From the IMG/VR virus record IMGVR_UViG_3300025641_000016, positions 1-42,984 of that record: DNA of 42,984 bases; one strand, written 5' to 3'. Each line of letters starts with the position of its first letter. Position 1 is the stretch's first letter. The DNA is from a virus. The position numbers were made by a program, and so were the translations under genes. A model generated the notes under the pieces. That model did not search any database. It saw nothing but the letters and a program-made list of their open reading frames with translations, and was not told the origin of the DNA. Shown piece after piece: positions 36,425 to 42,984 of the stretch.

Positions 36425-36772
36425 ATGTATACATATAACGCAAAATTAGATCGAGTTGTCGATGGGGATACCATTGACGCTTTAGTAGACTTAGGATTTA
36501 ATACTTGGAAAAAAGTAAGAATTCGAATGATGGGTATAGACGCCCCAGAATCAAGAACTAGAGATTTAGAAGAAAAAAAATTAGGACTAGCCGCTAAAGC
36601 TAGACTTAATGAATTAATAGAAAGTAATGACTTTTTATTTACCTTAAAATCTCATGGTGTGGGTAAATTCGGAAGATGTCTAGGTGAAATTTTTATAGAA
36701 GAAGAAATTAGTATTAATCAAACTTTAATAAATGAAGGACACGCAACACAATACAATGGGGGTACTAGGTAA
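36425..36772 (+). CDS. Thermonuclease-fold (SNase) protein
   Basis: A 115-aa protein with the staphylococcal nuclease OB fold. Key residues are in place: V-D-G-D-T (Asp13-Asp15), R-I-R-M-M-G-I-D-A-P-E (Arg34, Asp39, Glu42) and G-K-F-G-R (Arg84). The fold cleaves DNA or RNA at the 5' side of phosphodiester bonds with calcium. No signal peptide, so it probably acts in the cell, perhaps on host DNA. It is slightly shorter than the usual 130-150 aa domain. It overlaps the next frame at the 3' end. Confidence 0.85.
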   Translation: MYTYNAKLDRVVDGDTIDALVDLGFNTWKKVRIRMMGIDAPESRTRDLEEKKLGLAAKARLNELIESNDFLFTLKSHGVGKFGRCLGEIFIEEEISINQTLINEGHATQYNGGTR

Positions 36773-38305: not shown

Positions 38306-38587
38306 ATGAAATATAATAATGTTGAACCCCCACAAAAACCAACACCCCCTCAAGCTAAAATTATAGAAAAACCTATAATTGAACCAACACCACTAGAAAG
38401 CAAATTTGAACAAGATGTTTTTTGGAAGGAAGGTTCTGATATAGGGGATCAAGTAATTGTTCCTTTTAGATCTTTTGAGTTAAATAAAATTATGAGGGAT
38501 CATATAGAAGGTGGTAAAATCCCCTTGGAGGTTATTGGGTTTAAATTTAAAGGAAATGAAGTTGAAATAATATGCAACAGAGGATAA
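38306..38587 (+). CDS. Small hypothetical protein with Pro-rich N-terminus
   Basis: A 93-aa protein. The first 30 residues are proline and lysine rich (E-P-P-Q-K-P-T-P-P), probably disordered, followed by a compact part with W-K-E-G-S-D-I-G-D and G-F-K-F-K-G-N-E-V-E. I do not recognise the family. The stop overlaps the next likely start as TAATG. Confidence 0.55.
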   Translation: MKYNNVEPPQKPTPPQAKIIEKPIIEPTPLESKFEQDVFWKEGSDIGDQVIVPFRSFELNKIMRDHIEGGKIPLEVIGFKFKGNEVEIICNRG

Positions 38588-39105
38588 TGCATAGCCCATA
38601 TAGCCCAGTAACATCGAGAGAACAATTAGAAAAAAAATTCTCTAAATTACGTAAACTAAACTACAACGCTTTTAGGTGGTGGAGAATGTATGATAATCCA
38701 AATAAACCTTTGTGTAACCGATCATTATTTCGTGATCGTATATTAAATGGTGATTTTGATTATTCACATTACAAATATCAAGCAGATTGGTGTGAACATG
38801 AAATGAATGATATTGCTGAAGAATGTGGGGAGGATATAGGAAAATATGTTGAAAAAACATCTTTATTACGTTCTCGTAGAAAACGTTTACTTGAAGATTT
38901 TGAAAAAGACGAAAATGGTAAACTAGAAATGTTAATAAAAGCATTTACTGTCCATTTTAGATGTAATGAAGAACAAGTTTATGAAGAAATTGAAAAATGT
39001 AGTGGAGAACTGATAGATCTTTATTATATTATAGAAGATAAGTATAGAATAGTCCATATTCCCTACCCTTTAAAGCGTAGAGGACGACCTAAAAAAGTTA
39101 TATAA
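38587..39105 (+). CDS. Hypothetical protein with C-terminal AT-hook-like motif
   Basis: From ATG 38587 this is a 172-aa basic, helical protein; an earlier ATG at 38572 adds five residues, but 38587 forms the TAATG overlap used elsewhere in this genome. The C-terminus carries R-R-G-R-P-K-K, a typical AT-hook that binds the minor groove of AT-rich DNA. Residues about 70-170 are charged helices including R-S-R-R-K-R-L-L. A DNA-binding role is likely, but the family is unknown. It precedes a metallophosphoesterase gene by 0 bases. Confidence 0.6.
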   Translation: MHSPYSPVTSREQLEKKFSKLRKLNYNAFRWWRMYDNPNKPLCNRSLFRDRILNGDFDYSHYKYQADWCEHEMNDIAEECGEDIGKYVEKTSLLRSRRKRLLEDFEKDENGKLEMLIKAFTVHFRCNEEQVYEEIEKCSGELIDLYYIIEDKYRIVHIPYPLKRRGRPKKVI

Positions 39106-39783
39106 ATGAAAATTTGGCACATTAGTGATACCCATGGATATCATGAATTACTACAAATACCAGAAGGTATTGATATGGTTATTCATAGTGGAGATTGTAG
39201 TAACCCAAGAGACCCTTATAACAATGAACCTGAAGTAAGAGGATTTATTGATTGGTTTAGCAGTTTAGACATAAAATATAAAGTATATGTTGCTGGTAAC
39301 CATGATACTTCAATTGAAAAGAAGTTAGTAACTAAAGTAGATTTTAATGATCACGGTATTGTATATTTAGAAAACGAAACTTATGAAATAGAAGGTATTA
39401 AGATCTTTGGATCCCCACATACTCCTCAATTTGGTCAGTGGGCTTTTATGAAAGCTAGAAATAAGTTAGATAGAATTTGGGGAAGAGCAATCCCAGATGA
39501 TGCTAATATTGTTATTTGTCATGGTCCACCACGAGGGGTGTTAGATTTATCTTATGATAGATATAATGTTTTAGAATTTTGTGGTGATAAGTCACTAATG
39601 AACCGGATAAAAGAAGTAGAACCTATATTGGTATTATTTGGTCATATCCACAACAACAAAGAAATAGTAAATACAGGTACTAGAAAGGTATATGGTTTAG
39701 ATACTATATTCTCAAACGGTTCTGTGGTTACTGATGGAAAATTTGGTAAATTAACAAGTCAAGGAAATATATTTAAAATATGA
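39106..39783 (+). CDS. Calcineurin-like metallophosphoesterase
   Basis: A 225-aa phosphoesterase with the full metal-binding set: D-T-H near residue 8, I-H-S-G-D (Asp30), A-G-N-H-D, the V-I-C-H-G-P-P-R-G segment and F-G-H-I-H. No signal peptide. Substrate is unclear: such enzymes hydrolyse cyclic nucleotides, phosphoproteins or nucleic acid ends. Phage members may counter host signalling or repair DNA ends. It overlaps the next gene by 4 bases (ATGA). Confidence 0.85.
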   Translation: MKIWHISDTHGYHELLQIPEGIDMVIHSGDCSNPRDPYNNEPEVRGFIDWFSSLDIKYKVYVAGNHDTSIEKKLVTKVDFNDHGIVYLENETYEIEGIKIFGSPHTPQFGQWAFMKARNKLDRIWGRAIPDDANIVICHGPPRGVLDLSYDRYNVLEFCGDKSLMNRIKEVEPILVLFGHIHNNKEIVNTGTRKVYGLDTIFSNGSVVTDGKFGKLTSQGNIFKI

Positions 39784-40583
39784 AAGTATCACATGAAGTA
39801 CCTAGATGTTTACTAAAGGCATCACAAGTTTTTAATGATTATGATTATTGTTTACCTCATCTATTAGATATAGACGAGGATTACAAAAATTTCTTCTATA
39901 AACAAAAAGCTGAAGGACGTTATGTTATAATGGATAATTCACTTCATGAATTAGGAGAAGCATATGATTATGATAGGTTAAAATATTGGGTTAACGAATT
40001 AGAACCTGATGAATTTATGGTACCTGATGTTTGGATGGATTGTCATAAAACCGCAGCACAAGCCAAATATTGGTTACAATTTGAATTCCCCGAAAAAACT
40101 AAGAAGATAGCAGTAATCCAAGGTAAGGACAAAAACGACGCCTATTTATGTGCTGGGTTATTAAGAGAATTAGGTTACGATAAATTATGTGTATCTTACG
40201 GTGCTACTTGGTATAATGATTTCTTCCCACATAATAATGGAGATATGGGGAAAGCATTAGGTAGAGTACGATTTGTACAAGGCTTATTAAAATTAGACCA
40301 TTTAAAAGATGTTAAATTTCATTTACTAGGTTGCTCAATACCACAAGAATTTGGGTGGTATGATAATGGGTTCCCATCAAGAATAGAATCAATTGATACT
40401 TCAAACCCAGTAATGGCAGCCTTAGATGGAACCAGATATAATAGCAATGGTATGAATTACAAACCAAATGCTAATATGAATGATTTTTTTGATATTAAAT
40501 ATGAAGATATAAATTACTTCGATGTACTTTATAATACAACTAAATTTAGAGAAATCAATAATTTAAAAACCAAACAGTTATGA
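39780..40583 (+). CDS. dpdA: DpdA-like 7-deazaguanine transglycosylase (TGT fold)
   Basis: A 267-aa protein resembling the catalytic barrel of tRNA-guanine transglycosylase. I-M-D-N-S-L-H-E-L-G-E (about 50-60, Asp52) matches the first TGT active-site loop, M-V-P-D-V-W-M-D lies near 80-87, L-L-G-C-S-I-P-Q-E-F (182-191) parallels the substrate pocket, and R-I-E-S-I-D-T-S (Asp206) aligns with the TGT nucleophile region. The C-terminal zinc domain of bacterial TGT is absent. Phage homologues (DpdA) exchange guanine for 7-deazaguanines in DNA, which protects against restriction. QueC lies 1.4 kb downstream, which supports this role. I infer DNA rather than tRNA as substrate. Confidence 0.75.
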   Translation: MKVSHEVPRCLLKASQVFNDYDYCLPHLLDIDEDYKNFFYKQKAEGRYVIMDNSLHELGEAYDYDRLKYWVNELEPDEFMVPDVWMDCHKTAAQAKYWLQFEFPEKTKKIAVIQGKDKNDAYLCAGLLRELGYDKLCVSYGATWYNDFFPHNNGDMGKALGRVRFVQGLLKLDHLKDVKFHLLGCSIPQEFGWYDNGFPSRIESIDTSNPVMAALDGTRYNSNGMNYKPNANMNDFFDIKYEDINYFDVLYNTTKFREINNLKTKQL

Positions 40584-40792
40584 TGTCACTTTTCGATTAT
40601 CAAGGTCACGCAGATAAAGACGGAACAGGATTAAGATTAAATGCTTACGCACAATTAAAAAAACAACCCTTTAAACAAAGATACGTTGAAAATTCTGTTT
40701 ATAAAGGAAATGTATTTTTATATACTAAAGACTTTTTAGATGAATTTTTTGAAATCCAAGAAATTTTTAATAATGAATTTGTAGTAGAATAA
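40580..40792 (+). CDS. Small hypothetical protein after dpdA-like gene
   Basis: A 70-aa protein whose ATG overlaps the stop of the dpdA-like gene (ATGA), suggesting coupled translation. It has no membrane segment; the C-terminal half is rich in Phe, Asn and Glu. The family is not recognised. It may be an accessory to the modification enzyme, based only on coupling. It ends one base before the next gene. Confidence 0.55.
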   Translation: MMSLFDYQGHADKDGTGLRLNAYAQLKKQPFKQRYVENSVYKGNVFLYTKDFLDEFFEIQEIFNNEFVVE

Positions 40793-40793
40793 T

Positions 40794-41375
40794 ATGGCAA
40801 ATATTTGTAGAACAGAAATTAAAATGCAAGCTTCAAAAGAAGCAATCCAAGACTTTGTAAACCGATGGGAAAATTGTGTAGACGGAAGATACCCAAATAC
40901 TGAAAACGACAAACCACACATCGCAGATGAATTTGGAGCAGATGCAGAATTGTTTATTGATAAAGTTGGCTCTAAATGGGTAAGCTTTTACGAGGGGTAT
41001 GATTATGGTATATCTGAACACGATGATACAGAAGGTAGCAGCGAGGTAGTTTTTGAATTAGAATCAGCTTCTTACCCACCATCAGATATGATTTTGGAGA
41101 TATATAGACAATTAGCTGAATTTGATAAAGATGAAGATAAAGAAGTTAGGGTGTTTGGTTCATATTGGGATGAGGCTTATAATCCAATAGGTGTTTTTGA
41201 AGTTTATTATGGACAAATAATTGAGGAAGAACATTATGACCTAGATAAAGAGGAATGGGAAGAAATGGTTGAGGAAGAAGATGAAGACTATGATAGAAAC
41301 TTTTGGGAAGAGGTAGTAGGCCCTACATTTACCCTACTTCAAGAGAGATTAGATAAAGTAATGAAAGAAATATAA
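40794..41375 (+). CDS. Acidic hypothetical protein, Api92/YubB-like N-terminus
   Basis: A 193-aa strongly acidic protein. The start M-A-N-I-C-R-T-E-I-K-M with D-F-V-N-R-W resembles the N-terminus of Api92-type ferredoxin-like proteins found in phages and plasmids. A run of Glu/Asp (about 140-165) follows. No catalytic residues are recognised. Strong negative charge suggests a DNA-mimic or regulator, but that is a guess. The stop overlaps the cupin start as TAATG. Confidence 0.6.
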   Translation: MANICRTEIKMQASKEAIQDFVNRWENCVDGRYPNTENDKPHIADEFGADAELFIDKVGSKWVSFYEGYDYGISEHDDTEGSSEVVFELESASYPPSDMILEIYRQLAEFDKDEDKEVRVFGSYWDEAYNPIGVFEVYYGQIIEEEHYDLDKEEWEEMVEEEDEDYDRNFWEEVVGPTFTLLQERLDKVMKEI

Positions 41376-41716
41376 TGGAAATAGAAAGTAGACCTTGGGG
41401 TATGTATGAAGTATTATTAGATGCTCCTGAATGTAAGGTAAAAAGAATAACAGTAGCACCTGGTCAAAGGTTATCATATCAATATCACCACAAAAGAAAA
41501 GAAATTTGGACTGTGGTTAAAGGTAATTTAACAATTATTTTAGATGGTGAAAAAGTATTTAGAGGACCTGGGCAATCAATAAAAATTGGTTTAGGAGATA
41601 AACATAGAGCTTGGAATGAAACAGGTGGAGTAGTACAATTTATAGAAGTACAAACAGGAACATATTTTGGTGAAGACGATATTGTCCGAATCGAAGATGA
41701 TTATAAAAGAGAATAA
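41375..41716 (+). CDS. Cupin, mannose-6-phosphate isomerase type II-like
   Basis: A 113-aa single-domain cupin similar to the C-terminal sugar isomerase domain of ManC/type II PMI. Features are the N-terminal E-S-R-P-W-G-M-Y, the metal-binding stretch Y-H-H-K-R-K-E-I-W, a second His in K-H-R-A-W-N, and the C-terminal E-V-Q-T-G-T-Y-F-G-E-D-D-I. It would interconvert hexose phosphates, perhaps for surface glycan or DNA glycosyl donors. Domain is intact, but the nucleotidyltransferase partner is not in the window. It shares a TAATG with the preceding gene and ends one base before the next. Confidence 0.85.
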   Translation: MEIESRPWGMYEVLLDAPECKVKRITVAPGQRLSYQYHHKRKEIWTVVKGNLTIILDGEKVFRGPGQSIKIGLGDKHRAWNETGGVVQFIEVQTGTYFGEDDIVRIEDDYKRE

Positions 41717-41717
41717 T

Positions 41718-41984
41718 ATGGCATTAAAAAAACAATCAATTAGAAAAAATATGCATGTATTTGCAGATGGTGAACCTATATCTAAAGAAGATTTAATAAA
41801 GGTAAGTGAAAGCTGGTCTGAATCACAAGAATCTATGTTTAGAAAATGTCTAAAACAAGGGGTATACAAATTTAAAATTAAAGGAGTTTCATACCAAGTA
41901 AACCTAGATGAAAGAAATGATGTAGATTCAAAAGGTGATAAACCGGCACCCATAGTACAAATCCCAGGGGAAAGAACATTTTAA
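41718..41984 (+). CDS. Small hypothetical protein before QueC
   Basis: An 88-aa basic protein starting MALKKQSIRKN. An upstream ATG in the same frame (41667) lies inside the cupin gene and adds only low-quality sequence, so 41718 is preferred. Central W-S-E-S-Q-E-S-M-F-R and the K-F-K-I-K-G strand suggest a small alpha/beta protein. The C-terminus is Pro-rich. Family not recognised. Confidence 0.6.
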   Translation: MALKKQSIRKNMHVFADGEPISKEDLIKVSESWSESQESMFRKCLKQGVYKFKIKGVSYQVNLDERNDVDSKGDKPAPIVQIPGERTF

Positions 41985-42043
41985 ATATTAAATAAGCGTT
42001 AGCCTATACGTAAAATACCTGGCAAAAATTAAATAAATAAATT

Positions 42044-42886
42044 ATGGCAAAACATTGCGTAGTATCCTTATCAGGAGGGATGGATTCCTCAACATTACTA
42101 TTAAGAGCATTAAAAGAATATGATACGGTAACAGGTATTTCATTTGATTATGGTCAAAAACATCGAGTAGAATTAGAAAGAGCTCAACAGTTAGTAGATT
42201 ATGTAAATGGTAATCCTGTGAGAGTATTTAACCCAGACCAAACTGGGGGTAGATTTGTAGAATTATATTCTGAAGTAAATTACCGTCAAATCAAATTAGA
42301 TGGTTTATCAGATTTACTAGATTCAGCATTAGTTGAAGGTGGTGATGATGTTCCAGAGGGACATTACGAGAATGATAACATGAAAGAAACAGTTGTACCT
42401 AATAGAAATAAAATATTTGCTTCTATAACTCAAGCTGTAGCATTATCAGTAGCAAATAGAACAGGAGAAACTTGTGATATTGCTTTAGGAATACATGCTG
42501 GTGATCATGCTGTTTATCCTGATTGTAGACAAGAATTTAGAGATGCAGATGATAAAGCATTTCGTGAAGGAAATTGGGATGCTGACCAAGTAGGTTATTT
42601 TACACCTTACTTATTAGGTGATAAATTTACAATATTACAAGATGGAGAAAAATTGGTTGAGGAACTAGGCTTATCATTTGATGAAGTATATAAAAGAACT
42701 AATACTTCCTACAAACCTTACCCAAGTGGTAACAGCGATTACAAATCAGCATCATCAGTTGAACGTATTGAGGCATTTATTAAACTTGGTCGTAAAGATC
42801 CTGTAGTCTATGAAGATGAAACAGGGGTTGTAAGTTATGAAGTAGCGAAAGCTCATGTTGAAAAAGTACTTGCTGAATACGTATAG
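42044..42886 (+). CDS. queC: QueC-like 7-cyano-7-deazaguanine synthase
   Basis: A 280-aa ATP-pyrophosphatase of the QueC family, which converts 7-carboxy-7-deazaguanine to preQ0. Supporting marks are the P-loop S-G-G-M-D-S-S (9-15), F-D-Y-G-Q-K-H near 34-40, V-P-N-R-N near 117-121, and Y-P-D-C-R near 157-161. The C-terminal region corresponding to the zinc-binding C-x6-C-G-x-C-x-x-C segment reads S-Y-K-P-Y-P-S-G-N-S-D-Y and has no cysteine at all. Either zinc is not needed in this subfamily or the substrate or product differs. With the DpdA-like gene it suggests phage DNA hypermodification. It is preceded by a 59-base AT-rich gap. Confidence 0.88.
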   Translation: MAKHCVVSLSGGMDSSTLLLRALKEYDTVTGISFDYGQKHRVELERAQQLVDYVNGNPVRVFNPDQTGGRFVELYSEVNYRQIKLDGLSDLLDSALVEGGDDVPEGHYENDNMKETVVPNRNKIFASITQAVALSVANRTGETCDIALGIHAGDHAVYPDCRQEFRDADDKAFREGNWDADQVGYFTPYLLGDKFTILQDGEKLVEELGLSFDEVYKRTNTSYKPYPSGNSDYKSASSVERIEAFIKLGRKDPVVYEDETGVVSYEVAKAHVEKVLAEYV

Positions 42887-42913: not shown

Positions 42914-42984
42914 ATGACAACAAATCAACAATCAAACAACGGACAAACCCAAGTCAACCAAGTTCGGGGTTCGTTTAACAACAA
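42914..42984 (+). CDS. 3'-truncated CDS with Asn/Gln-rich N-terminus
   Basis: From ATG 42914 the frame is open to the window end and encodes at least 23 residues, beginning M-T-T-N-Q-Q-S-N-N-G-Q and continuing V-R-G-S-F. It follows QueC by 27 bases of AT-rich DNA. The product is unknown because the window ends. A further 7-deazaguanine pathway gene could lie here or downstream, but the visible part does not show it. Confidence 0.5.
   Translation, partial: MTTNQQSNNGQTQVNQVRGSFNN

Follow-up and report, generated by a model that had tools for sequence, protein, structure and literature searches.

Near the end of a 42,984-nucleotide stretch of DNA from a marine virus (hereafter the window; IMG/VR record IMGVR_UViG_3300025641_000016) lies what is very likely the start of a cassette that replaces guanine in the phage DNA with a 7-deazaguanine base. 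Two genes define it:

39780..40583, + strand: dpdA, encoding a transglycosylase of 267 amino acids (AlphaFold2 model, structure matches to tRNA-guanine transglycosylase [TGT] and DpdA, profile match to 7ui4, invariant residues); putative general base D52 and substrate-loop residues D83, Q114 and H181-G184 (by motif order), nucleophile D206.
42044..42886, + strand: a queC-like gene, encoding a presumed 7-cyano-7-deazaguanine (preQ0) synthase of 280 amino acids without zinc cysteines (PF06508 match, identity to the QueC of phage immuto, motifs).

An earlier note, made from the letters of the window, had placed both open reading frames (ORFs) at these positions and proposed that together they signify 7-deazaguanine DNA modification; the fold, the motifs and the operon context support this, as do homologs in phages whose DNA modification is known or annotated. 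Guanine exchange by DpdA-type systems is already known, and the variant described here lies in the QueC and the gene set: what is new, judging from sequence, is a QueC that has none of the four cysteines of the family-defining zinc site, its other catalytic motifs being kept.

Fold, motifs and relatives of the transglycosylase

The 39780 product matches no Pfam or NCBIfam model, and its family match is the unnamed phrog_19058 (E 3e-43). Its AlphaFold2 model, built from 70 aligned relatives, has a mean predicted local distance difference test score (pLDDT) of 96 and a predicted template modelling score (pTM) of 0.92. Foldseek ranks the bacterial DpdA 7ui4 first (E 6.6e-6), followed by mouse TGT and mammalian TGT subunits, and the best 50 PDB entries found with VIA-align are all TGT or DpdA (Z 16.1 to 16.6, with 228 to 233 of the 267 residues aligned); the placement in the TGT superfamily on which the earlier note relied is thereby upheld. 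In a full-length profile search 7ui4 is the sole natural protein at E <0.01; the remainder are designed TIM barrels, which we rejected as relatives because their scores reflect helix-strand repeats. A C-terminal profile brings the nucleophile motif into register with that of 7ui4 (E 0.0044; 'HLLGCSIPQEF...ESIDTSNP' over 'HLLGIARPESF...SIDSTTP').

Nine residues (D52, N53, D83, R162, H181, L183, G184, D206 and N252) are invariant across 55 homologs, an alignment that includes the phages immuto, CP220, CC_R7, Youna2, BSTP8 and MA9V-3, and D52, D83, Q114 and the HLLG motif are conserved among homologs of the protein. Direct alignment covers only the region of D206, which falls on the SID motif of 7ui4, so that the roles of the other residues follow from motif order relative to TGT. 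No cysteine occurs after D206, and the C-terminal zinc site of TGT (three cysteines and one histidine) is therefore missing, as the earlier note had seen. We regard the 39780 product as almost certainly an enzyme of the TGT/DpdA kind.

Cultured phages account for 26 matches to the protein, mostly listed as hypothetical; they come from immuto phages, Campylobacter phages of the CP220 group, CC_R7, Youna2, BSTP-type Bacillus phages and MA9V-3. The immuto homolog is annotated as a DNA guanine transglycosylase, and its record also holds the full preQ0 pathway; Youna2 and BSTP8 each have queD, queE and folE beside the homolog, and in CC_R7 queC lies immediately upstream of it. A profile scan of IMG/VR found at least 584 relatives and one of genome contigs only 10, all but a few of these in metagenome-assembled bins (possibly mis-binned phage). 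Enzymes of this putatively guanine-replacing class are thus widespread in phage contigs from the environment, largely from the sea, as against about 26 cultured-phage records in the collection searched.

The Campylobacter phages of the CP220 group were reported to be highly modified with 7-amido-7-deazaguanine (dADG in DNA), no DpdA having been recognised there (Hutinet et al. 2019, PMC6884629). The CP220 protein YP_009169190 (L083:9676-10452), listed as hypothetical, is a homolog of the window transglycosylase and, on this homology, a candidate for the dADG-inserting enzyme of the group; the environmental enzymes are in this way tied to a hypothetical protein from phages once thought to modify their DNA without DpdA. 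Cui and colleagues reportedly introduced the name DpdA3 in 2023 for the enzymes of phages with complete guanine replacement, Campylobacter phages among them, and are said to have described formyl and methyl branches in phages; the window protein is homologous over its full length to the Campylobacter-phage enzyme and may be of the DpdA3-like kind.

A QueC-like protein without zinc cysteines

The queC-like gene follows dpdA after 1.46 kb (the earlier note had given 1.4 kb). Its product matches PF06508 (E 2.9e-36; 125 bits, where the cut-off is 22), scores 121 bits with the NCBIfam equivalog TIGR00364 (under the 150-bit cut-off), and is 75% identical to the QueC of immuto. It keeps the SGGxDS, YxQxHxxE, VPxRN and YPDC motifs as well as the tyrosine that follows the first zinc position, and it lacks C(x)8CxxCxxC, all four zinc cysteines being replaced (TSY...SDYKSASS versus TCY...CGHCAAC). 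In E. coli QueC, mutants of the equivalent residues Tyr35, Arg99, Tyr131 and Tyr189 are inactive, and YPDC and YxQxHxxE are required for preQ0 formation (PMC13329287).

The loss is a property of the group: 85 of 90 distinct QueC proteins encoded beside dpdA of the window's clade are zinc-less (two are zinc-type and three truncated), and a search with the QueC alignment as bait found a zinc-less QueC in 70/70 distinct loci. In a tree the zinc-less QueC proteins of the window type and of immuto form a single clade (99/99), with Sphingomonas phage MMDA13 outside; long branches meet in this tree, which therefore only suggests the number of zinc losses. The MMDA13 protein (L092:3004-3789) also lacks the zinc cysteines, possibly through a separate event, and a QueF-like gene lies nearby. 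A zinc-type QueC with YWDT for YPDC occupies the same operon position in L025 (L025:7462-8199), L026 and L103 (two contigs).

The zinc-less QueC of immuto, the sole QueC match reported for that record, stands alongside a true QueF nitrile reductase (PF14819, E 2e-33), and because QueF uses preQ0 the zinc-less QueC probably makes preQ0. The protein offers a direct test of whether the two-step amide-to-nitrile chemistry needs zinc.

The loss of the zinc motif could also mean that this QueC halts after the first half-reaction, from 7-carboxy-7-deazaguanine to 7-amido-7-deazaguanine, and that the same operon installs dADG, as is reported for the nearest characterised group with a homologous transglycosylase, the Campylobacter phages (PMC6884629). 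We consider this unlikely: the QueF that coexists with the immuto protein requires preQ0, a nitrile; the pairing of a zinc-less QueC with QueF recurs in several metagenomic relatives; and the QueC proteins of CP220 and CC_R7 have their zinc cysteines with YPDC and YxQxHxxE altered, so that dADG accompanies other changes than the one seen here. As a base, dADG ranks second in likelihood after preQ0 in DNA (dPreQ0).

That the protein is no base synthase at all, and instead modifies proteins in the manner of QatC/Cap9 or is a nucleotide ligase belonging to a different branch, is very improbable even with the zinc motif absent, the TIGR00364 score under its cut-off and relatives of QueC known to have been repurposed (PMC13329287), for the canonical small-molecule motifs are all kept, the gene sits between dpdA and queD, queE and folE in most relatives, each long record has one QueC only, and in L025, L026 and L103 a zinc-type QueC takes its position.

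Operon, precursor supply and neighbouring genes

The window's group comprises 108 distinct loci (112 distinct dpdA minus four distant ones). Of the distinct loci, 59 extend for at least 5 kb downstream, and these encode QueC in 57 cases and QueD and QueE in 55 cases each; FolE is encoded in 29 of the 35 that extend for at least 7.5 kb. Long records encode QueD in 20/20 cases, and an overlapping set of 20 has FolE in 18/20 and one QueC each. The window itself has just the two pathway genes that the earlier note had seen, queD, queE and folE being absent from its 42,984 nucleotides, and it ends 98 bases past queC, inside an ORF. All 23 residues encoded by this cut ORF (23/23) are identical to those of the ORF after queC in L010, a close relative, where a thioredoxin, QueD, QueE, FolE and a Gpt-like phosphoribosyltransferase follow. 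In view of the relatives and of this match, the phage itself very probably encodes queD, queE and folE just outside the window. The earlier note had looked to the host or to genes beyond position 42984 for the precursor; the second source agrees with the relatives, in which these genes lie directly downstream, and host supply, unlikely to be needed, was rejected as the default reading because the relatives carry queD, queE and folE.

The purine phosphoribosyltransferase gene (for example, L010:12379-12858 and L082:26932-27327) occurs in the operon of many relatives and in both of the gene layouts that we distinguish; its product may salvage the guanine that base exchange releases. In the layout of the immuto type queC lies apart and the remaining order is queD-queE-phosphoribosyltransferase-folE-dpdA-formyltransferase-thymidylate kinase-queF; in that of the window type a gene like that at 38572 is followed by dpdA, queC, queD, queE, folE and the phosphoribosyltransferase, with no queF. 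No QueF was found in the long relative records searched, those of 158-170 kb included, although fragments could miss it. The two layouts differ in gene set, and their products are therefore expected to differ: a preQ1 derivative for the immuto type, and preQ0 or 7-amido-7-deazaguanine for the window type. Since no long relative has queF, dPreQ0 is the probable main base, and we set aside products of the dPreQ1 type for the window's own group.

The same set of genes could in principle boost queuosine-type modification of host or phage tRNA and leave the DNA unmodified, given the TGT fold and the proposal that phages with preQ0 genes and no DpdA raise host Q (PMC6884629); this is highly improbable, as the zinc-site cysteines are absent from the transglycosylase, among solved proteins DpdA, and not TGT, comes closest in sequence, the homologs belong to phages whose DNA modification is annotated or reported, the window contains no tRNA genes, and QueF was not found in the relatives.

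The remaining features around the two genes are as follows:

38572..39105, + strand: partner gene, conserved near dpdA; helical 177-amino-acid product bearing a WWRMY motif and, at the C terminus, the AT-hook-like tail RRGRPKK.
39106..39783, + strand: metallophosphoesterase (PF00149, E 4.7e-13), translationally coupled to dpdA in the window.
40580..40792, + strand: 70-amino-acid ORF with an ATGA overlap with the dpdA stop; homologs after dpdA in some relatives.
40794..41375, + strand: acidic 193-amino-acid protein, sporadic in relatives.
41375..41716, + strand: cupin (PF01050, E 1.3e-27), resembling the C-terminal domain of mannose-6-phosphate isomerase.
41718..41984, + strand: small ORF with ATG at 41718 (listed from TTG 41667), matching no family; homologs elsewhere in 28 loci.
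42914..42984, + strand: first part of an ORF that runs past the window end, with the 23-residue identity to L010.

In 88/101 loci the 38572-type gene lies no more than about 1.5 kb upstream of dpdA (directly adjacent in 54), and with this gene as bait dpdA follows in 31 of the 32 loci that leave room for it; a script counted 29 of these, and in the other two, L201 and L207, dpdA starts at or just inside the match end. L228:3785-4282 is the sole locus with the gene, downstream room and no detectable dpdA. The WWR motif is conserved and a GRP tail is present in 72/89 products. The AlphaFold2 model of the product (pLDDT 89) has no match above Z 4.9 and no convincing one among viral models; a weak match to a small terminase (Z 3.7) is not meaningful, and an Hsp90 match in the alignment came from L165, a chimeric or mis-read member that we removed. 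No homolog was detected among cultured phages, immuto included, yet immuto has a homolog (55%) of the neighbouring gene at 36732, and because it keeps the one without the other the association of the 38572-type gene with dpdA appears to go somewhat beyond shared synteny. Our guess is that the product is a DNA-binding helper. The 36732-37928 gene encodes a 398-amino-acid protein without a Pfam family, which is kept in most relatives, in immuto and in some jumbo phages.

ATGA overlaps join the dpdA ORF to its neighbours on both sides (39780-39783 and 40580-40583). Four nearby genes are nevertheless found in few relatives: the metallophosphoesterase occurs in 14/162 loci (a set that, here and below, was not deduplicated), the acidic protein in 9/81 and 15/162, the cupin in 6/81 and 13/162, and the 70-amino-acid ORF has a homolog in 28/81. 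With so few relatives carrying them we rejected all four as general accessory parts, a role that the earlier note had suggested for the acidic protein, the cupin and the small coupled ORF; the conserved neighbour is instead the upstream gene at 38572-39105. The stand-alone cupin occupies other positions too in relatives.

Elsewhere the window encodes a tail sheath, a UvsX-like recombinase, a replicative helicase, a ribonucleotide reductase and a capsid protein closest (57%) to that of immuto, and it has no close nucleotide relative in the phage collection. Scans for promoters and terminators found about as many as chance would give. A/T-rich stretches precede the gene starts, where a clear Shine-Dalgarno sequence was not seen; this start context would fit a Bacteroidota host.

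Proposed system and comparison with known systems

We infer the DNA substrate, the base installed, the extent of replacement, the protection and the guanine salvage from the computed fold, family, motifs and operon. The locus would be the promoter-proximal end of an operon with which the phage replaces guanine in its DNA. GTP would be converted to 7-carboxy-7-deazaguanine by FolE, QueD and QueE, whose genes very probably lie just past the window, and the QueC-like enzyme would turn this product into preQ0; the transglycosylase would then put the 7-deaza base in place of guanines that the phage DNA already contains. As in TGT, D206 would act as the nucleophile and D52 as the general acid/base. 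The modified DNA would be uncuttable by many restriction enzymes, and the Gpt-like phosphoribosyltransferase might salvage the expelled guanine. Together with the AT-hook-like neighbour, this last enzyme suggests a way for a phage to carry out base exchange across its whole genome. More speculatively, in a large clade of marine T4-like phages the zinc-free QueC might hand the base directly to the small transglycosylase, which the AT-hook protein might bring to the DNA or activate while the phosphoribosyltransferase recycles guanine, so that most or all guanines could be replaced; we hold this fuller scheme only tentatively.

Several points weigh against guanine replacement as we read it. The transglycosylase is just 12-15% identical to solved DpdA and TGT proteins, the QueC lacks its zinc motif, and the window alone contains just two genes of the pathway. 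QueF could sit in an unsequenced part of the records or be a non-homologous enzyme.

Among known systems, the bacterial DNA preQ0 insertase 7ui4 shares with the window protein the TIM-barrel TGT fold and the HLLG...SID nucleophile motif, but is only about 14% identical and has 436 residues against 267. Canonical QueC (E. coli b0444, PF06508, TIGR00364) has in common with the window protein SGGxDS, YxQxHxxE, VPxRN, YPDC and the tyrosine noted above; the window protein differs in its replaced zinc cysteines, a longer insert and a C-terminal tail. In the CP220 group (Firehammervirus), YP_009169190 is 40% identical to the window transglycosylase over 98% of its length and has the same invariant residues, whereas queC, queD and the transglycosylase gene are widely separated there and the QueC has zinc cysteines and altered substrate motifs. 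The likeness to immuto (vB_FspM_immuto_2-6A, YP_010114477) is broader: its transglycosylase is 37% identical over the full length, its QueC is likewise zinc-less, its capsid is T4-like, and its QueD, QueE and FolE are 60-84% identical to those of the window's relatives. Immuto differs in having queF and a formyltransferase near dpdA with queC distant, whereas the window type has queC beside dpdA, an AT-hook-like gene upstream, and no queF in its relatives.

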